Below, one piece after another: positions 3,880 to 33,966 of a stretch of DNA of 64,000 nucleotides. The notes beneath the pieces are model-generated. The model did not search any database and had not been told where the DNA came from. It saw only the letters and a list, made by a program, of their open reading frames with translations. Both the position numbers and the translations under genes were made by a program. The stretch's first letter is position 1, and every line of letters begins with the position of its first letter. The stretch covers positions 19,115 through 83,114 of the forward strand of contig CALXAH010000010.1 in NCBI GenBank assembly GCA_944386225.1, written 5' to 3'. The stretch comes from an uncultured Gemmiger sp. GTDB lineage: Bacteria > Bacillota > Clostridia > Oscillospirales > Ruminococcaceae.

Positions 3880-5172
3880 GTGTTTGAGACGTTCCGCAAC
3901 GCGTGGAAGGTGGAGGAGCTTCGCAAGCGCATCCTGTATACGCTGCTGATCCTGGTCATCTTCCGCCTGGGCTGTGCGGTGCCGGTGCCCTACGTGGATG
4001 CATCGGTGCTGGACGCCTGGTTCGGCACCGGCAACATGCTGGACTACCTGAACATGATGTCTGGCTCTGCTCTGTCGCAGTGCACGCTGTTCGCCCTGGG
4101 CGTTTCCCCCTACATCAACTCCTCCATCATCATTCAGCTGCTCACGGTGGCCATCCCGGCCCTGGAGCGGCTGAGCAAGGAGGGTGAAGAGGGCCGCCGC
4201 AAACTCACCCGCATCACCAAATACGTCAGCGGCGGCATCGCCCTGGGTATGTCCATCGGTTACTACTTCGTGCTGCGCAACCTGGGCGCTCTGAGCGTCA
4301 CCGGCTGGCAGGCCTGGTTCGTGGCCGTGGTCATCATCCTGTGCTTTACGGCCGGCGCGCAGCTGGCTACCTTCCTGGGCGAGCAGGTTGACAGCAAGGG
4401 CATCGGCAACGGTGTTTCCCTGCTGATCTTCACCGGCATTATCGCCAACTGGAGCACCGTGGTCACCGCTGTCAACAGCATCCTGACCAAGGCTGCCAGC
4501 CAGCCCTTGTACTACCTGGCCTTCCCGGGCGTGGTCATCCTCGCCCTGGCTGCCGTGGTGTTCGTGGTCATCCTGACCAACGCCGAACGCCGCCTGCCGG
4601 TGCAGTACGCCAAGCGTGTGGTGGGCCGCAAGATGTACGGCGGTCAGTCCAGCCACATTCCCATCAAGGTGAACATGAGCGGCGTTATGCCCGTCATCTT
4701 CGCCAGCGCCCTGTGCAGCATCCCCGGCACCATCGGCGGGTTCATCAACCTGGACGCCGCTGCCCACCCCTACTGGACCGCGTTCTTCAACTTCTTCAGT
4801 GCCCGCGGCTGGGGCTACATGGTGTTCTACCTGCTGCTGATCATCGGCTTCAACTACTTCTATGTGGCTATCCAGTACAACCCGGTTGAGATCGCCAACA
4901 ACCTGCGCCAGAACAACGGCGCGATCCCCGGCTACCGTCCCGGCAAGCCGACCAGCGATTTCATCACCAAGGTACTGGGCAAGATCACCCTGGTGGGCGC
5001 CCTGTTCCTGGGCGTGGTCGCCGTGCTGCCCATTCTGCTGGGCAACGTGACCGGCCTTCCCATCCAGCTGGGCGGTACCAGCCTGCTGATCGTGGTAGGC
5101 GTGGCCCTGGACACCTCCCGCAGCATGGAAAGCTTCATGGTGATGCGTCACCACAAGGGCTTCCTGCAGTAA
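3880..5172 (+). CDS. secY: Preprotein translocase subunit SecY
   Basis: A 430-residue polytopic membrane protein with about ten predicted transmembrane segments, forming the central channel of the Sec translocon. Family segments seen are LGVSPYINSSIIIQLL, GNGVSLLIFTGI, ERRLPVQYAKRV and the cytoplasmic loop RPGKPTSDFI. The start is a GTG one base after the rplO stop; GAGG just inside the rplO end could serve as ribosome site. It is followed by adk, the standard Firmicutes order. Confidence 0.97.
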   Translation: MFETFRNAWKVEELRKRILYTLLILVIFRLGCAVPVPYVDASVLDAWFGTGNMLDYLNMMSGSALSQCTLFALGVSPYINSSIIIQLLTVAIPALERLSKEGEEGRRKLTRITKYVSGGIALGMSIGYYFVLRNLGALSVTGWQAWFVAVVIILCFTAGAQLATFLGEQVDSKGIGNGVSLLIFTGIIANWSTVVTAVNSILTKAASQPLYYLAFPGVVILALAAVVFVVILTNAERRLPVQYAKRVVGRKMYGGQSSHIPIKVNMSGVMPVIFASALCSIPGTIGGFINLDAAAHPYWTAFFNFFSARGWGYMVFYLLLIIGFNYFYVAIQYNPVEIANNLRQNNGAIPGYRPGKPTSDFITKVLGKITLVGALFLGVVAVLPILLGNVTGLPIQLGGTSLLIVVGVALDTSRSMESFMVMRHHKGFLQ

Positions 5173-26597: not shown

Positions 26598-27932
26598 TTA
26601 TTCCAGCCCCAGGGTGATGGCGTTGACCGCTTCGGTCAGGTCCACCGCCAGAGAGCGGTCCACCAGGCCCAACGTCGCGCCGTCCAGGGTGGCCAGACAG
26701 CTTTCGCCGTCGTACTGGTAAAGCACCACCGTCAGGCTGGGCCAGGTCTCGTTGTCCAGGTGTACGGTAAAGGCGATCTCCTGCTTCTTGGCGGGTTCCT
26801 CGCTGTTGAATTCGCTTACCGTCAGCGCGTCCACCGCGCTGCTCACCTCGTCAAATTCCACCTCGGTGTCGTTGATGGTCCAGGTATCGCCGGAGTGGGT
26901 CAGGGTATATACGGTGTCATCCAGGGTAAAGCCCACGCTGGTCACCGCGTCCCAATCCAGGGCCAGCACCTCGTCCGGGCGCAAAGCGTCATAGTCGGTG
27001 GCGGTGATCTCCTCGTAGGACGTCTCGTCCACCTCATACACGATGGGGGAGTCATCCATCCGCATATAGCCGTTGCCGTCCTCGTCCTGCCCGAAGGCCA
27101 GCACAAAGCTGCTCTGGGCCTCGTCGGCGGTGCAGGTCACGGTAAACTGAAGGGCGGGCGCATCCAGCCCCCACTGGGCCAGATCCTCGTCGGTGGCGGT
27201 GTAGCTTACGTAATTGGCCCGGTCCAGTCCGTCAAAGGTGCTGATCAGGCCGGTCACCTTACCGGTGTCCAGCGCCTGGAAGCTGCCGTCCTGGTTCAGG
27301 TAGTAGTCGTAGGCATCGGTGTAGGTCAGTTCCTCGTCCGGGCGGTATTCCACCGTCAGGCTGGCCTCGCCCTCCACCGTGATGCTGTCCATGGTGGAGT
27401 AGTCGGGAATGGTATCCTGGGCCATCAGCTCATCCCGGTCCTCGGCCAGATATTCCGCCGGGTCGTCCTCGATCAGGTAGACCGTGCCGGTGCCCAGGGT
27501 CACATACCGCTTGCTGTCCATGGTGGAGTAGTCGCCCAGCTCCAGCACCGTCTCCCCGTCGGCGGTGGTCAGGGTCACCGTGCCGGTGGGGCTGGCCAGG
27601 CCGTACTGGGTAAAGTCCTCCACATCCTCGATGATAAAGCTGGCGGTCACGCTTTCAAAGTGTGCCAGCAGATCGGCCATCTTCTCCTGGTCGATCGGAA
27701 AGTCCGCGTCCGAGGCATCCTGCCAGACCCCGTCGGTCTGGGTAAAGCTCAGGCTGGTTTCGCCGTTTGTCCAGGAGATGCCGGTCAGATCATCGGAGGA
27801 GAGGGCCAGGATCTCCTCGCTGGTGGCGGAGATGCTGTCCATGTGGCGCTCCACCCCGGTGGCGATCACGATCGCCAGGCAGAGCACCGCCAGAATCAGC
27901 AGCAGAATGGTCAGCTGTTTTGTCCGCTTCAT
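26598..27932 (-). CDS. DUF4340 protein of an ABC/Gldg exporter operon
   Basis: A 444-residue protein with one N-terminal membrane anchor (about residues 7-27) and a long extracytoplasmic part of the DUF4340 type: repeated blocks GISWTNGETSLSFTQTDGVW and VTSVGFTLDDTVYTLTHSGDTW, with FTQYGLASPTGTVTLT and LAQWGLDAPALQFTVT between. It is acidic and looks like repeated beta-rich domains. Its start overlaps the Gldg stop (ATGA). Family function is unknown, but it travels with ATPase-permease-Gldg modules. Confidence 0.82.
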   Translation of the reverse strand: MKRTKQLTILLLILAVLCLAIVIATGVERHMDSISATSEEILALSSDDLTGISWTNGETSLSFTQTDGVWQDASDADFPIDQEKMADLLAHFESVTASFIIEDVEDFTQYGLASPTGTVTLTTADGETVLELGDYSTMDSKRYVTLGTGTVYLIEDDPAEYLAEDRDELMAQDTIPDYSTMDSITVEGEASLTVEYRPDEELTYTDAYDYYLNQDGSFQALDTGKVTGLISTFDGLDRANYVSYTATDEDLAQWGLDAPALQFTVTCTADEAQSSFVLAFGQDEDGNGYMRMDDSPIVYEVDETSYEEITATDYDALRPDEVLALDWDAVTSVGFTLDDTVYTLTHSGDTWTINDTEVEFDEVSSAVDALTVSEFNSEEPAKKQEIAFTVHLDNETWPSLTVVLYQYDGESCLATLDGATLGLVDRSLAVDLTEAVNAITLGLE

Positions 27933-28777
27933 AGTTTCTTCCTCCTGCGCAGAATTTCGTCAATACCCAGCAGCAGGAAGCCCACCGGGATCACGCCGAT
28001 CATCACGATCTTCAGCCAGGTGGCGGCCGAGGAGGAGATGGTCAGGTAGTTGTAGTCCAGGGATTTGGCGCGGATGGACACCGCGTCGATGTTCAGCAGC
28101 GAGAAATCGCTCGCCGTCTCGTAGTTGCTGCGGGCCAGCTCGTCGGTAAAGGTCTCGGACAGGGCCTGTTCCCCGTGGCCGCTGAGCAGGTAGACCTGGG
28201 GCAGATCCTCCCGCACCACATAGTCGATGGCCGAGGTGATCTGACCCTCGCCGTCAAAGGACTGGGACACCGATCCGGTGGTGTAGTAGCTGCTGGTATC
28301 GTATTCGTAGATGTCCTCGTAGGCGATGTACCGGCTCTTTTCACCGGATTCCACCACCAGCGAGTTGTTGGTCACCGTCTGGTCGGTGTACTGCTGGGCA
28401 AAGGTGGGGTAGACGTCCGGGTCCTTCTTGACCACGGTGATGTGCTCGGACAGGTCACCGTACCGGTCCAGCAGTTTTTCGATGACGGTGTCCTCTTTGC
28501 CGGCCTGCACGATCCAGTAGATGGTCACATCCTGTTCCAGGTTGGTGGCCACCACCTTGGTGTCGGCGGTCAGGGAATAGAGCTGTGCCGCCGAGATATC
28601 CAGCTGGGTAAAGCGGGAGGGCAGCAGCCCTGCCAGCACGTTCACCGCGATCAGGATGGCCAGCACCACCAGGCACAGCACAAAGCTGTATCCGCCCACC
28701 TTGGCGGTGCGGGTGCCCAGCGCCTGCCGGTTTCTGGCCAGGGCGCTGTGCAGCTTGTTTTTATAACTGTTCTTCAT
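27929..28777 (-). CDS. Gldg-family ABC auxiliary protein, apparently internally shortened
   Basis: A 282-residue membrane protein with one N-terminal (about 31-52) and one C-terminal (about 258-274) hydrophobic segment. Between lies the Gldg/ABC-auxiliary domain (QLDISAAQLYSLTADTKVVATNLEQDVTIYWI... REDLPQVYLLSGHGEQAL). Family members I recall are well over 400 residues; here SDFSLLNIDAV is joined directly to the membrane-proximal IRAKSLDYNYLTISSS, so the middle domain appears to be missing in frame. The gene overlaps both neighbours by four bases. Confidence 0.75.
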   Translation of the reverse strand: MKNSYKNKLHSALARNRQALGTRTAKVGGYSFVLCLVVLAILIAVNVLAGLLPSRFTQLDISAAQLYSLTADTKVVATNLEQDVTIYWIVQAGKEDTVIEKLLDRYGDLSEHITVVKKDPDVYPTFAQQYTDQTVTNNSLVVESGEKSRYIAYEDIYEYDTSSYYTTGSVSQSFDGEGQITSAIDYVVREDLPQVYLLSGHGEQALSETFTDELARSNYETASDFSLLNIDAVSIRAKSLDYNYLTISSSAATWLKIVMIGVIPVGFLLLGIDEILRRRKKL

Positions 28778-29637
28778 CCGTTATACCTCTTTTTCTCCCA
28801 GGACTGTACGCACAGGAACAGGAAGAACGCGGCCACGCTCAGGTAGTATACGATGGCGGTCACGTCAAAGACCCCGTTCACAAAGGTGTAGAACCGCTCA
28901 AACAGAGACAGACGGCTCATCAGGTCGGGCAGCAGGGTGGCCAGAGAATCCGGGTTTACCAGCCAGACAACCCCCACCGCCGCCAGGCAGAGCACCAGCA
29001 CCAGGATGCCCGCCGCGTCGGAGCAGGTCAGCCGCCGTACCAGCAGCGCCAGCAGGGCAGCGATCACCACCAGCGCCACCAGGTTGAAGGCGGTGGAGGC
29101 GATGTAGTCGGCCAGGGAGGCGCTGTAGCAGCAGAAGAGCATGACCACCACGCAGAGCCCTGCCGCCATGCCCTGGGATTCGGTCAGGGAGGAGATGAAC
29201 ATGCCGATGGCGATCAGCGCCAGACCCAGGAACACAAAGGCGATGAGCGCGCCGTAGGAGGTGGGCAGGTAGACTTCGCCGTACAGGGAGAAGATCAGCG
29301 GGTAGACACAGGCTACCAGCATGGGAATCACAAACACCAGCGCCATGGCAAAATACTTGCCCAGGATGATGTCGGTGGAAGAAAGGGGCAGCAGGGAGAG
29401 CAGCTGGTCGGTTTTCTGCTTTTTCTCCTCCGCCAGCACCCGCATGGTCAGGATGGGCACCAGGGCCACAAACCCGATGCAGAAGGTGCCCAGGGCATAC
29501 TCAAAGTTGGCCACCGCCGCGTTGATGTTGTAGAGCATCGCGCCGATGCCGATGAATTCCAGCAGGAATGCCCCGAATACATAGGCCAGCAGCCCGTGGC
29601 TGTACAGGCCGGCCTCGTGCTTAAATACCGCTTTCAT
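28774..29637 (-). CDS. ABC-2 type permease of the Gldg operon
   Basis: A 287-residue permease with about six transmembrane segments. RVLAEEKKQKTDQLLSLLPLSSTDIILGKYFAM is typical of GldF/NosY-like ABC-2 subunits that form the membrane channel with the ATPase encoded upstream. It overlaps the ATPase gene by 17 bases and Gldg by four, so all four genes are one transcript. The exported substrate is unknown. Confidence 0.88.
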   Translation of the reverse strand: MKAVFKHEAGLYSHGLLAYVFGAFLLEFIGIGAMLYNINAAVANFEYALGTFCIGFVALVPILTMRVLAEEKKQKTDQLLSLLPLSSTDIILGKYFAMALVFVIPMLVACVYPLIFSLYGEVYLPTSYGALIAFVFLGLALIAIGMFISSLTESQGMAAGLCVVVMLFCCYSASLADYIASTAFNLVALVVIAALLALLVRRLTCSDAAGILVLVLCLAAVGVVWLVNPDSLATLLPDLMSRLSLFERFYTFVNGVFDVTAIVYYLSVAAFFLFLCVQSWEKKRYNG

Positions 29638-30598
29638 GGATGGGCTCCTTCTTTCCGGACGGTTCGTCCTCGGTCAGTTCGATAAAGATGTTCTCCAGAT
29701 CCGCCCGCACCGGGGTCATCTGCAGAATGGGCCGTCCGGCTTTGGCAAAGGCCAGGAAGATGGCCCGGGCGGCGGCGTTCGCGTCGCCCTGCAGGGTCAG
29801 CTCGGCCCGGCAGCCGCCGGCCGCCTCGTCCGCCTGAACTTCGCAGCCGGTCACCTCCCGCACGCCGGCCAGCAGCCCCTGCACCTGGTCGGGGGTGGCC
29901 TCGGCGCACAGGGTCATCCGCCCGGCGGCGGTGAGCATCTTTTCCAGGTTCTGGGGGGTATCAAAGGCCACCAGTCTGCCGTGGGCGATGATCAGCACGC
30001 TCTCGCAGATGGCCTGCACCTCGCTCAGGATATGGCTGCTCAGGATTACGGTGTGCTTTTCGCCCAGCTGGCGGATCAGGTCGCGGATCTCGATGATCTG
30101 CAGCGGATCCAGGCCCACGGTGGGCTCGTCCAGAATGATGTAGGGCGGGCTGCCCAGCAGCGCCTGGGCGATGCCCACCCGCTGCCGGTACCCCTTGGAC
30201 AGGTTGCGGATCAGCCGCCCGGCCATCTCGTCCAGCCGGGTCTCGGCCACCACCCGGGCTACCTCGTCCGGGATCTGTTTGGCCGGGATGCCCTTGGCCT
30301 GGGCCACAAAGCTCAGGTACTCCCAGGGCGTTTCGTCGGTGTACAGGGGCGGGATCTCGGGCAGATACCCGATCAGCCGCTTGGCCTGCCGCGCGTCCTC
30401 AAAGATGTCGTGACCGTCGATGGTCACTTCCCCCGCGCTGGCGGCCAGACACCCGGTCATGATGTTCATGGTGGTGGATTTGCCCGCGCCGTTCGGCCCG
30501 AGGAACCCATAGATATGGCCCGTTTCCAGGGTGAACGAGATGTCGTCCACCGCGGTGACGCTGCCGTATCGTTTGGTCAAGTGTTCAACCGTTATCAT
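29621..30598 (-). CDS. ABC transporter ATPase of the Gldg operon
   Basis: A 325-residue ATPase. Walker A FLGPNGAGKST (about residues 33-43), signature LSKGYRQRVGIAQAL (about 133-147), Walker B YIILDEPTVGLDP and the switch His in ILSSHIL are all present. Beyond residue 215 a C-terminal extension (TLCAEATPDQVQGLLAGVREV...) is as in GldA/CcmA-type ATPases. The start ATG follows ACGGAGG. Its promoter shares a repeat architecture with the adjacent two-component regulator gene. Confidence 0.93.
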   Translation of the reverse strand: MITVEHLTKRYGSVTAVDDISFTLETGHIYGFLGPNGAGKSTTMNIMTGCLAASAGEVTIDGHDIFEDARQAKRLIGYLPEIPPLYTDETPWEYLSFVAQAKGIPAKQIPDEVARVVAETRLDEMAGRLIRNLSKGYRQRVGIAQALLGSPPYIILDEPTVGLDPLQIIEIRDLIRQLGEKHTVILSSHILSEVQAICESVLIIAHGRLVAFDTPQNLEKMLTAAGRMTLCAEATPDQVQGLLAGVREVTGCEVQADEAAGGCRAELTLQGDANAAARAIFLAFAKAGRPILQMTPVRADLENIFIELTEDEPSGKKEPIHESGI

Positions 30599-30627
30599 GG
30601 CAGATACCTCCGTAGTTCTTGGACTTT

Positions 30628-30660
30628 ACTGTATCACGCCGGGCTGAAACCAAACTGAAA
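30628..30660 (-). promoter_or_regulatory. Response-regulator-type promoter of the ABC/Gldg operon
   Basis: Reading the minus strand: TTTCAG (30660-30655), five bases, TTTCAG (30649-30644), ten bases, TACAGT (-10, 30633-30628). The two hexamers are 11 bases apart, one helical turn, as in OmpR/PhoB-type sites that replace a -35 box. The same layout occurs before the response regulator gene. Confidence 0.7.
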
Positions 30661-30716
30661 AAACCGCCCCCCGTCTGTGAAAGTTCCGCGAAACTGCCCG
30701 TAAGCGGGAACGAAAA

Positions 30717-30742
30717 ACCGGACACACCGCGGTGTGTCCGGT
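30717..30742 (-). terminator. Terminator after the histidine kinase gene
   Basis: A 26-base perfect palindrome (ACCGGACACACC, GC, GGTGTGTCCGGT) begins eight bases past the kinase stop and is followed on the minus strand by five T. Confidence 0.88.
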
Positions 30743-30749
30743 CAGAGTT

Positions 30750-31961
30750 TCAATGGCGCAGGGCGGGCAGCGATACGTAAAAGGTGTTGACACCCCTCTC
30801 GCTGGCAGCCCAGATGCGGCCCCGGTGGGCGGTCACGATCCGGTGGGCGATGGCCAGCCCCAGCCCGCAGCCCTCCCCGTGCCGGTGCTCCGGGTCGGCC
30901 CGGTAGAACCGCTTGAACAGCTTGGGCAGTTCCTGCGGGGGGATGGTGTCGCCCCGGCTGGTCACCGCCAGCACCGCCCGCCGCCCCTCCCGGTGCAGGG
31001 AGATGTGCACCACACTGGCGGGCGCGGCGTATTTCTGCCCGTTGTCCAGCAGGATGGCGGTCACCCGGCGCAGCTGGTCGGCGTTGCCCCGCACCCGGAT
31101 GCCGGGCGCAAGGCTGGTGTCCAGCCCCAGCCCCTTTTCAAAATACAGCGGCTCAAAGGGCAGCAGGGCTTCCTCCACGGCGGCGCTCCAGTCCACCGGG
31201 CAGCGGGCCGCCCGCTCCGGCTCCCGGTCGGCCCGGGCCAGTTCCAGCAGCCGTTCCACCAGATCCTTCATCTGGCGGGACACGGTGCGGATATCCCCGG
31301 CCAGCCGGTCTTTCTCCGGCCCGGCGCTCTCCGGTGCGCAGAGCAGCTCCGCGTCGGTGAGAATCACGGTCAGCGGGGTTTTCAGCTCGTGGCTGGCGTC
31401 CGCCACAAATTGTTTCTGCTGCACCCAGGCCCGCTCCACCGGGCCCACCGCCCAGCGAGCCAGCAGGATACTCAGCACCAGAAAAGCCAGGAACGCCCCG
31501 CCGCAGATCAGAAGGCAGCTTTCCAGCAGACCGTTCAGGGTGCGGGTTTCGCCGGATATATCGGCGAACACGATGTAGCCGGTCTGGGGCATGTCCACCC
31601 GCAGAAACCGCAGCCCATAGGCCTCCAGCATGCCGCTGGCCGCCTCCTGCTGCAGCACCTCGTTCACGGCCTGCTGCAGAAATTCCGAATCGGACAGGTC
31701 GTAGTAGCCGCCGCCGGTGCCCTGCACCTGGCCGCCCTTGTCCACCTCCAGCACAAAATAGGGCAGCCGCATGCCGGAAAATTCCTCGTCCGGCGCCTGG
31801 GGCCGGGCCGGGTTCAGGGCGATCTGCCACATGGTGCGCAGGCTTTCCCGCTCCAGGCTTGCCCGGGTCAGCCCCAGCACCGCTGCCAGCACACAGAGCA
31901 GGATCACCGTCACGATGCTCATGGTGATGCAGACAAACTTGATCTTGAGCCGCCGGATCAT
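30750..31961 (-). CDS. Sensor histidine kinase (OmpR-partner type)
   Basis: A 403-residue kinase. Two membrane segments (about 9-31 and 147-168) enclose a roughly 115-residue extracytoplasmic sensor. The dimerisation H-box DASHELKTPLT holds the phospho-His near residue 190. The catalytic domain has the N-box ILLDNGQKYA, the lid LPKLFKRFYRAD and the G2 box GEGCGLGLAIAHRIV; the usual DxGxG box is altered to SRGDTIP. The start overlaps the regulator stop by four bases. The sensed signal is unknown; linkage suggests a stress handled by the neighbouring ABC system. Confidence 0.9.
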   Translation of the reverse strand: MIRRLKIKFVCITMSIVTVILLCVLAAVLGLTRASLERESLRTMWQIALNPARPQAPDEEFSGMRLPYFVLEVDKGGQVQGTGGGYYDLSDSEFLQQAVNEVLQQEAASGMLEAYGLRFLRVDMPQTGYIVFADISGETRTLNGLLESCLLICGGAFLAFLVLSILLARWAVGPVERAWVQQKQFVADASHELKTPLTVILTDAELLCAPESAGPEKDRLAGDIRTVSRQMKDLVERLLELARADREPERAARCPVDWSAAVEEALLPFEPLYFEKGLGLDTSLAPGIRVRGNADQLRRVTAILLDNGQKYAAPASVVHISLHREGRRAVLAVTSRGDTIPPQELPKLFKRFYRADPEHRHGEGCGLGLAIAHRIVTAHRGRIWAASERGVNTFYVSLPALRH

Positions 31962-32632
31962 CCCTGCGCCACCTCCAGATGATAGCCCACCCGGCGCACC
32001 GCCGCGATGTTCACGTCGGACCCCAGGCTTTTCAGCTTCTTGCGCAGAAAGCCCACATAGACCTCCACGCTGTTTTCCCCCGCGCCGGATTCAAAGCCCC
32101 ACACCCGCGTCAGGATGACCTCTTTCGGGATATTGCCGCCCCCCGCCTGCATCAGCAGCCGCATCACGTCAAACTCCCGGGCGGACAGGCGCAGGCTTTT
32201 TTCTCCGCAGCACAGGGTGGCCGCGTCCAGATCCAGGGCGGTGTTGCCGAACCGCAGCTGATCCACCTGGCCGCCCTGCCGCCGCAGCAGAGCCCGCACG
32301 CAGGCCAGCAGTTCGCCGATCTCGAAAGGTTTGGTCAGGTAGTAGTCCGCCCCGGCGTTCAGCCCCTCGATCCGATCGGAAAGATCCGAGCGGGCGGTGA
32401 GCATCAGAATCGGCACGGCGCTGTGCTTTCGGCGCAGATGCCGCGCCAGCTCAAAGCCGTTCAGCCCCGGCATCATCACATCCAGGATCAGCAGGTCGTA
32501 GATGCCGGTGTCGGCGTATTCGGCGCCGGTGGCGCCGTCATAGGCAAGCTCCACCGCAAAGCCCTTGCGCTCCAGCAGGGTTTTCAGCGACTGGGCCAGC
32601 CGCTTTTCGTCCTCCACAATCAGAATCCGCAC
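31958..32632 (-). CDS. OmpR-family response regulator
   Basis: A 224-residue regulator. The receiver has acidic pocket VEDE, phospho-acceptor Asp in LLILDVMMPG (about residue 51) and Lys in LTKPFEIGELLA; the C-terminal winged helix (LRLSAREFDVMRLLM ... VYVGFLRKKLKSLG ... AAVRRVGYHLE) is OmpR type. The GTG start at 32632 follows GAGGTG and gives a standard N-terminus (VRILIVEDEKRL); a TTG at 32671 is an alternative. Tandem TTTCAG repeats lie in its promoter, so it is likely autoregulated. Confidence 0.9.
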   Translation of the reverse strand: MRILIVEDEKRLAQSLKTLLERKGFAVELAYDGATGAEYADTGIYDLLILDVMMPGLNGFELARHLRRKHSAVPILMLTARSDLSDRIEGLNAGADYYLTKPFEIGELLACVRALLRRQGGQVDQLRFGNTALDLDAATLCCGEKSLRLSAREFDVMRLLMQAGGGNIPKEVILTRVWGFESGAGENSVEVYVGFLRKKLKSLGSDVNIAAVRRVGYHLEVAQG

Positions 32633-32658
32633 ACAACGCACCTCATTTCTTCCCTTAT

Positions 32659-32691
32659 ATTGTAAAGACAAAAGCTGAAAAGAAGCTGAAA
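32659..32691 (-). promoter_or_regulatory. Response-regulator-type promoter of the two-component operon
   Basis: On the minus strand: TTTCAG (32691-32686), CTTCT, TTTCAG (32680-32675), ten bases, TACAAT (-10, 32664-32659). The repeat extends to TTTCAGCTT in both copies. Spacing is identical, base for base, to the promoter of the ABC/Gldg operon. Confidence 0.72.
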
Positions 32692-32710
32692 GTCTTGTGT
32701 AGATTTGGTG

Positions 32711-32740
32711 GAAAAAAGCCGCACCCCGAAAGGTGCGGCT
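32711..32740 (-). terminator. Terminator after the oxidoreductase gene
   Basis: AGCCGCACC and GGTGCGGCT pair perfectly around a 6-base loop, followed on the minus strand by six T, about ten bases past the stop at 32749. Confidence 0.88.
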
Positions 32741-32748
32741 GTGCGGAT

Positions 32749-33966
32749 TTATTCCACTGTCTGCAGATACTCGTCCATGGCGCGGGCCACGTCCTTGGAA
32801 TGGCGTACCGCCTCCACCACGGTGCGGGCGCCGCTTACCACGTCGCCGCTGCCGAAGATCCCCGGGCGGCTGGTGCGGCCCTCCTCGTCCGCGGCCAGCA
32901 GGCCCCGGTCGGTCACGGCCAGGCCGGTGGTGGTATTCACGATCTTGTCCTTGGGGCCCTGGCTGGCGGCGATCACCACGCTGTCCGCCCGGAACAGCTT
33001 CGGCTCGCTCAGCCCGGTTACCTCGTTGTTTTCGTCAAAGGTGGCCTGCTGGTAGAGCACCCCTTCGTCGGTGATCTCCACCGGGCGGGCGCCGTAGTGC
33101 ATCTCCACCCCGTCGGCCACCGCGTATTCCAGTTCCCGCACGCTGGCGGCAGCCTGGTTGCGGCGGCAGAACACATGCACCTGCCGCACCCCCTTGCGGA
33201 TGGCGGTGCGGGCCACGTCCATGGCCGAGTTGCCCGCCCCGATCACCACCAGGCTGCGGCCCAGATCGTATACGTCCGGGTTTACCAGGTAGTCGATGGC
33301 AAAGTGCACATGGCCCAGGCTCTCGCCGGGGATGCCCAGCTTTTTGGGCCGCCATACGCCGGTGCCGATAAAGATGGCCTTGTAGCCGTCCCGCTGCAGG
33401 TCGTCCACCGTCAGCGCCCCGCCGATCACCGTGTTGGGCCGGATCTTGATGCCCAGCTGCACCAGCTGGGCCTGGTACCGGTCCAGCACGCTCTTGGGCA
33501 GGCGGAACTCCGGGATGCCGTACCGCAGCACGCCGCCGATCTTGTCCCGGCTTTCAAACAGGGTCACGTCGTAGCCCTTCTGGGCCAGCAGCACCGCGAT
33601 GGTGATGCCCGCCGGGCCGGAGCCGATGATGGCCACCCGTTTGCCCCTGGCGGCCTGCCGCTGCAGCTGCAGCCGGTCCAGATGGGCGTCGGAAATGTAG
33701 TTTTCAATACTGGAAATGTGCACCGGCGCGCCCTTGCGGCCCAGTACACAGTGCCCCTCGCACTGCTTTTCGTGGTCGCACACCAGCGAGCAGATCACGC
33801 TCAGCGGGTTGTTTTCAAACAGCATCTGACCCGCCTCTTCGGTGCGGTGCTCCAGAAACATCCGGATCATGTCCGGGATCGGGGTATTGATGGGGCAGCC
33901 CTTGCGGCACTGGGGAACCTTGCAGTTCAGGCAGCGCCGGGCTTCGTTTACCACATGGATGGCCAT
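32749..33966 (-). CDS. NAD(P)-dependent Fe-S oxidoreductase, GltD-like
   Basis: A 405-residue protein of the glutamate-synthase small-subunit/dihydropyrimidine-dehydrogenase-like family. The N-terminal cysteine pattern CLNCKVPQCRKGCP ... CSLVCDHEKQCEGHCVLG binds two [4Fe-4S] clusters. The FAD Rossmann motif GKRVAIIGSGPAGI starts near residue 108 and the NAD(P) motif LVVIGAGNSAMDVARTA near 243; GIFGSGDVVSGARTVVEAV is the conserved FAD ending. No partner large subunit adjoins, so it may feed electrons to proteins encoded elsewhere. GGAGGGA precedes the ATG. Confidence 0.88.
   Translation of the reverse strand: MAIHVVNEARRCLNCKVPQCRKGCPINTPIPDMIRMFLEHRTEEAGQMLFENNPLSVICSLVCDHEKQCEGHCVLGRKGAPVHISSIENYISDAHLDRLQLQRQAARGKRVAIIGSGPAGITIAVLLAQKGYDVTLFESRDKIGGVLRYGIPEFRLPKSVLDRYQAQLVQLGIKIRPNTVIGGALTVDDLQRDGYKAIFIGTGVWRPKKLGIPGESLGHVHFAIDYLVNPDVYDLGRSLVVIGAGNSAMDVARTAIRKGVRQVHVFCRRNQAAASVRELEYAVADGVEMHYGARPVEITDEGVLYQQATFDENNEVTGLSEPKLFRADSVVIAASQGPKDKIVNTTTGLAVTDRGLLAADEEGRTSRPGIFGSGDVVSGARTVVEAVRHSKDVARAMDEYLQTVE

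Follow-up and report, generated by a model that had tools for sequence, protein, structure and literature searches.

The locus occupies positions 32691-26598 of the window (the whole stretch of DNA that was analysed, 64,000 nucleotides) and comprises six genes, encoding a response regulator (RR), a sensor histidine kinase (HK), an ABC ATPase, a permease, a GldG-like protein and a DUF4340 protein. All six lie on the minus strand, so that the RR-HK and ABC operons are co-directional and not divergently organised, as an earlier note on this DNA had described them. The features are listed here from the upstream end of the locus.

32717..32740, minus strand: terminator-like hairpin upstream of the RR promoter (terminator pattern scan)
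32659..32691, minus strand: promoter of the RR-HK operon, with TTTCAG at 32691-32686, TTTCAG at 32680-32675 and the -10 box TACAAT at 32664-32659
31958..32632, minus strand: OmpR/PhoB-type response regulator (RR), GTG start at 32632, alternative in-frame GTG at 32641
30750..31961, minus strand: sensor histidine kinase, 403 aa, PF00512 and PF02518, extracytoplasmic region at about residues 33-145
30716..30743, minus strand: terminator-like hairpin between the kinase gene and the ABC promoter, -27.7 kcal/mol, z -4.4
30628..30660, minus strand: promoter of the ABC operon, with TTTCAG at 30660-30655, TTTCAG at 30649-30644 and the -10 box TACAGT at 30633-30628
29621..30598, minus strand: ABC ATPase, GldA-like, PF00005; 271.4 bits with TIGR03522 (GldA), cut-off 402.6
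28774..29637, minus strand: ABC-2 permease, GldF-like, PF12698; 66.5 bits with TIGR03518, cut-off 288.5
27929..28777, minus strand: GldG-like protein, 282 aa, PF23357 only; 18.3 bits with the GldG NCBIfam, cut-off 389.85
26598..27932, minus strand: DUF4340 protein, PF14238, last gene of the ABC operon

The regulator combines a receiver domain (PF00072, 107.7 bits) with a Trans_reg_C winged helix (PF00486, 58.5 bits), and its recognition helix reads ENSVEVYVGFLRKK. The downstream operon resembles the GldA-GldF-GldG system in that ATPase, permease and a GldG-like partner are joined in one operon, with GldA and GldF as the best NCBIfam matches of the ATPase and the permease. It differs from this system in that all three proteins score far below their NCBIfam cut-offs, the operon also encodes a DUF4340 protein and the GldG-like protein is about 205 residues short. 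A terminator-like hairpin precedes each promoter (five such patterns are listed in the region versus 1.9 expected), and therefore each operon should start at its own promoter.

The short GldG-like gene (282 aa versus 487 aa in G008, a genome of the same genus) lacks about 205 internal residues in frame. The DNA of same-genus G127 also has the stretch that is absent from the window, and in L290 this stretch holds PF09822. Near the junction at 28076-28087, about 10 bp align with both ends of the absent part, and the gene may have arisen by a deletion between short repeats or by assembly collapse. In another genome of the genus (G197, 75% complete; L321, 4097-4639), no more than about 540 bases lie between the ABC ATPase and DUF4340 genes, and no match to the permease and GldG-like genes was found in that stretch.

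Both promoters carry the pattern TTTCAG-N5-TTTCAG-N10-TACANT, each time on the minus strand. The 33-mer at the RR-HK promoter is TTTCAGCTTCTTTTCAGCTTTTGTCTTTACAAT (32691-32659, minus strand), and the one at the ABC promoter is TTTCAGTTTGGTTTCAGCCCGGCGTGATACAGT (30660-30628, minus strand). The hexamer pairs, their 11-base period and the ten-base distance to TACANT had been placed exactly by the earlier note at both promoters. Its statement that a -35 box is missing agrees with a consensus scan of 30550-32760, in which no sigma-70-type -35/-10 pair was found. A direct hexamer repeat with a period of 11 bp, ten bases from a -10 box and without a -35 box, represents an operator geometry of the OmpR/PhoB type. 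Shine-Dalgarno-like stretches follow within about 30 bases downstream of each promoter. Between the two promoters, the spacers are identical at only 2/5 (N5) and 1/10 (N10) bases; because they differ, one promoter is not a recent copy of the other, and a promoter duplication was ruled out on this ground.

The 17-mer TTTCAG-N5-TTTCAG occurs twice in the window, compared with 0.01 occurrences expected from shuffles. In the whole 3.38-Mb genome it is likewise found twice, both times at these promoters, and the reversed pattern does not occur. The genome search for the box that had been suggested earlier thus returned two full boxes only, and the regulon therefore looks local. A second test was blind to the hexamer, in order to remove its after-the-fact choice, and counted on both strands of the 64-kb window every perfect repeat of any hexamer that has an 11-bp period and is followed by TAnnnT after ten bases. 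Three such arrangements were obtained, namely the two boxes and one overlapping the first on the other strand, against a mean of 0.19 in 200 dinucleotide shuffles. Not one of the 200 shuffles contained any hexamer twice in this arrangement, which bears out the view that coincidence is unlikely.

Allowing one mismatch added 20 sites in the same genome versus three for the reversed control, which indicates that this control understates the background of the bare repeat. When these 20 sites were inspected at gaps of 9-11 bases, TAnnnT was found at ten bases in none and at eleven bases in one, which lies under a 242-aa open frame. A larger regulon at one-mismatch stringency was rejected, as the 20 sites include no further credible target.

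Next, the 33-base pattern (with TANNNT as the -10 box) was searched in related genomes. The scan of 197 genomes of the family yielded 29 sites in 21 genomes and no match for the reversed control, and that of 394 genomes of the order yielded 50 sites in 36 genomes with one control match. Five sites, including the window's two, are common to both scans, leaving 74 distinct sites. A looser scan of 396 family genomes (TTTCAG-N1-10-TTTCAG-N4-20-TANNAT) was discarded; at least 220 genomes matched, chance matches dominate and no count was drawn.

Lack of conservation at orthologous loci had been named beforehand as the outcome that would speak against a shared operator; the hexamers are in fact kept in other genera and families. 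Within the genus, G008, G127 and G197 retain both the RR-HK and the ABC promoter box, and the latter is also present in L284, L285, L287, L290 and L291, which belong to other genera or families. The arrangement of the window, in which the RR-HK box is followed after about 2 kb by a box at the ABC operon, recurs in L284, L285 and L290, and similarly in L287, where the RR box has one mismatch. In L282 and L283, the second box about 2 kb past the RR-HK box fronts an HlyD-like and an HtrA-like gene, respectively.

The genes behind the box were tallied for 71 distinct sites, with the window and its genus included and some sites of the order scan left out (e.g. those of G737 and G653). This tally comprises 26 RR genes, one kinase gene and 11 ABC ATPase genes, of which the window and its own genus supply 4/26 and 4/11, followed by six VTC genes (four by Pfam, two by resemblance), four HtrA-like trypsin-PDZ genes, two HlyD-like genes and one subtilase gene. 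The remaining 20/71 sites have other genes or no clear gene downstream and show no evident target. Besides that, partial boxes were seen in L315 (G038) near 4260, with TTTCAG-N5-ATTCAG-N10-TATTTT upstream of a GldG-like gene, and ahead of the ABC gene of L319 (G307), where TGTAAG-N5-TTTCAG-N10-TACAAT was read by eye.

Exporter operons were also fetched via their DUF4340 gene, blind to the box. In L305, L306, L310, L311 and L314, the exporter has another RR as its neighbour, which shares 38-42% identity over its length with that of the window, and nTTTAG-like repeats are found at both promoters; L316, whose RR aligns with the window RR in two pieces (33 and 44%), belongs to this group too. In five of the six loci, both promoters combine nTTTAG (CTTTAG-like) repeats of period 11 with TAnnnT at ten bases, with CTCTAG as one of the hexamers in L305. 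L306 is the weaker case, labelled nTTTAG by hand, with an RR box read by eye and without TAnnnT at ten bases. Within a locus, the RR and ABC boxes are alike at 11-12/12 positions in 11/11 paired loci, from which same-genus G008 and G127 were left out; boxes compared across the two regulator types are alike at 7-9/12 positions. Three of the 11 pairs (L284, L285, L287) and many TTTCAG loci were fetched through the motif, so that their having a box is circular; that their regulators share one clade is not.

The change of box is accompanied by a change of the recognition helix, which reads [NA][NHST]VE[VA][YH][VIM][GS]F in TTTCAG regulators and SV[VI]WV[HL][IL]SN in nTTTAG regulators. For this comparison and for the tree, one exact hexamer of the two sufficed for the TTTCAG label, and RR rows were dropped if the match was not near both ends or the reading lay outside 200-270 aa, and neither L316 nor the broken L284 RR is part of the helix comparison. 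In the tree of 97/163 regulators, 33/33 TTTCAG rows fall into one clade of 40 (support 100/97) and 6/6 nTTTAG rows into another clade of size 8, with five label changes versus 27.6 in shuffles; the comparison of TTTCAG with nTTTAG regulators rests in essence on a single switch. By the rule used, 7/40 rows of the TTTCAG clade have no box. The 66/163 regulators outside the tree bear none of the four box labels, and some of them have other repeats. Of the 26 RRs behind counted boxes, 25 were placed on the tree, all in the TTTCAG clade, and the broken L284 RR was unplaced. Altogether, these sequence comparisons support control of its own promoter and of the ABC promoter by the regulator.

The exporter also occurs apart from an orthologous regulator. 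The RR was sought in eight genomes that possess the exporter operon; seven of the eight ABC promoters are without a full box, and no RR above 44% identity was found in those seven genomes. For example, G341 and G244 (single contig) have a close exporter operon (ABC ATPase 68-79% in pieces, permease 84-85%) with a best RR of 39%, and their ABC promoter, read by eye as TTTCAG-N5-TGTTAC-N10-TACAAT, departs from the full pattern in the second hexamer only. G073 (L291 / L322) has a full box on its ABC operon, and its nearest RR, 55% identical and on another contig, has a helix of the same type as the TTTCAG regulators and TTTCAT/TTTAAG at its own promoter, as read by eye. The regulator of this genome is either relaxed or missing, and the case fits the link between box and regulator less well.

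As for the spacing, repeat period was plotted against distance to TAnnnT for 128 RR upstream regions that had not been chosen by the motif, the window's own being present twice. The 12 fullest of the 120 grid cells all have period 11, and the highest lie at distances 9, 8, 10 and 11, with 29, 24, 24 and 21 of 128 regions, respectively (grid mean 3.7). Related words at like spacing, e.g. TTTCAA or TTTAAG, are found at other regulators of the group. In the genome of the window itself, the RR has 33 additional matches, of which 17 extend over nearly the full length; promoters were inspected for 18/34 matches including the window's own, the other 16 being partial, and apart from the window RR no regulator of nearly full length has a TTTCAG box at its own promoter. 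The uniform period and the absence of TTTCAG from these 17 regulators indicate that the spacing is a common property and the word is private. A profile search of a collection of genome contigs with the regulator alignment proved too broad, with distant regulators at most of its 80 loci, which were used as background only; its nearest named regulators, e.g. those of Ruminococcus and Oscillospiraceae records, suggest a clostridium-type bacterium. At the promoter of one regulator of the window's genome (L126, contig C8, RR at 87577-88230), the sequence reads ATTAAC-N5-ATTAAC-N10-TATTCT, which may be a pho-type box.

With 33 further RR matches in the genome, 17 of them near full length, cross-talk has to be considered, in which another OmpR-type regulator reads the box and the neighbouring RR is merely one of its targets. 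The ABC box of G073, which has no close RR orthologue, would fit such a scheme. However, the hexamer is absent at the own promoters of all 17 regulators inspected, the genome offers no third full repeat, and the box tracks the orthologous RR across families and differs beside a different RR, all of which makes cross-talk improbable.

We favour, at a probability of roughly 0.87, the reading that the neighbouring RR operates via TTTCAG-N5-TTTCAG, activating its own operon and the ABC operon as part of an envelope system. The phosphorylated RR (31958-32632) would bind TTTCAG-N5-TTTCAG as a head-to-tail dimer, with one subunit per hexamer on a single face of the helix. In place of a -35 box, it would retain RNA polymerase at the -10 box, at a distance of ten bases, in a PhoB-like manner, and could thereby switch on its own RR-HK operon together with the ABC-permease-GldG-DUF4340 operon beyond the terminator-like hairpin. 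We infer binding, phosphorylation and a positive sign at both promoters by analogy with PhoB and CiaR. Of the earlier proposal that the regulator activates both itself and the exporter, control of both promoters was thus upheld by comparison, whereas activation is suggested by the position of the box only. At activated pho-box and CiaR promoters, too, the box lies ten bases from the -10 box.

Alternatively, the RR might bind but repress, which would mean negative autoregulation and an exporter that is kept silent. Polymerase could be obstructed by a dimer seated on the -35 region, and one operon repressed by CiaR is described in PMC8317062. Yet a -35/-10 pair was found at neither promoter, and a box replacing the -35 box is the usual layout of PhoB-activated promoters (PMC4971064), so that repression appears quite improbable. 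Chance likeness, or a recent promoter copy without regulatory meaning, is hardly tenable: the genome has just two sites, but 0/200 shuffles repeat a hexamer in this way twice, the spacers are unlike, 74 distinct sites (the window's two included) face one control match, and both the boxes at orthologous loci and the box change beside a different RR contradict it.

By domain and operator geometry, the window system is of the OmpR/PhoB family and combines a familiar design with a new recognition word. PMC4971064 describes a PhoB dimer on a 22-bp box, with one subunit per direct repeat, and a pho box whose 7-bp repeats and additional 4 bp give a period of 11 and which in E. coli usually lies near the -10 box and replaces the -35 box. 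The window system shares with PhoB the family and the two direct repeats of period 11 near the -10 box; it differs in the recognition word, and a separate regulator of the genome bears the ATTAAC repeat.

A second comparison is offered by CiaRH of streptococci. According to PMC3091779 and PMC8317062, CiaR needs TTTAAG-N5-TTTAAG, activates most of the genes that it controls directly and exerts feedback on its own operon, and htrA is among the most strongly CiaR-regulated genes. Similarly, the target promoters here contain two directly repeated T-rich hexamers that end in AG and are separated by N5, and HtrA-like genes lie behind the TTTCAG box at 4/71 sites in relatives. A box also stands at the RR-HK promoter, where it may serve a feedback like that of CiaR on its own operon. 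The systems differ in the fourth base of the hexamer, which is C here and A in CiaR, so that the operator departs from NTTAAG-N5-TTTAAG. Furthermore, the window RR is about 38% identical to the Streptococcus regulators, which we take to be CiaR and which fall outside the TTTCAG clade. As the window genome has no third full box, none stands at an htrA gene. Identity with CiaRH was ruled out by the different word and by the position of the Streptococcus regulators outside the clade.

In the open-access literature searched (titles and abstracts as listed), neither a TTTCAG operator nor any regulator of a GldG/DUF4340 exporter was found to be described. The box provides a rule, based on sequence alone, that assigns targets to a two-component clade of the Clostridia without a description in that literature, and it names a candidate regulator for a GldG/DUF4340 exporter. 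Moreover, TTTCAG and nTTTAG regulators, each with its own helix and with the exporter as a common target, represent a natural exchange experiment on site discrimination by OmpR-type regulators.

Further, we looked into the sensor kinase. Its extracytoplasmic part of about 113 residues (33-145) was modelled as strand-strand-helix-three strands (mean pLDDT 78.5, pTM 0.51), a predicted fold that we read as PAS-like. A Foldseek search with the sensor-kinase model returned kinases or kinase-like proteins as a whole among the best 50 of 942 matches, giving no ligand clue. Sensor identity is 41-48% to the kinases of TTTCAG loci with an ABC operon outside the genus (L284, L285, L287, L290; the L284 kinase aligned over residues 1-244 only). 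It amounts to 38% for the HtrA-linked L283, 39% and 33% for the HlyD-linked L282 and L289, and 29% for the VTC-linked L288; the L296 kinase was left out of the alignment. For the six kinases tied to the same exporter via nTTTAG boxes it is 17-22%, and the exporter, being wired to such unlike sensors, is thus not tied to one sensor. The suggestion of the earlier note that the exporter relieves the very signal read by the sensor gains no support here, with these six exporter loci and with the protease, VTC and HlyD-like genes that the box fronts elsewhere.

The envelope genes behind the box in relatives (HtrA-like, HlyD-type, VTC, ABC exporter) point to an envelope theme, and the RR system most likely serves cell-envelope stress or homeostasis. 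A broader reading, which we hold tentatively and would doubt slightly more readily than endorse, is that of an envelope-homeostasis regulon spread across a clade of the Clostridia, with TTTCAG as its word and a CiaRH-like role. The GldA-GldF-GldG-DUF4340 exporter would have been passed between two systems with unlike sensors, and the boxes and the recognition helix would have changed together.

HtrA-like serine proteases, the best-known target type of CiaR, are encoded behind a TTTCAG box in L283, L292, L263 and L265. VTC-domain genes, assigned in L050 and L029 by resemblance only, follow such a box in L288, L044, L050, L035, L296 and L029. Three of these loci (L288, L044, L050) also have, in divergent orientation to the VTC box, an RR gene with a box of its own, which indicates that the regulator clade has a second standing partner.
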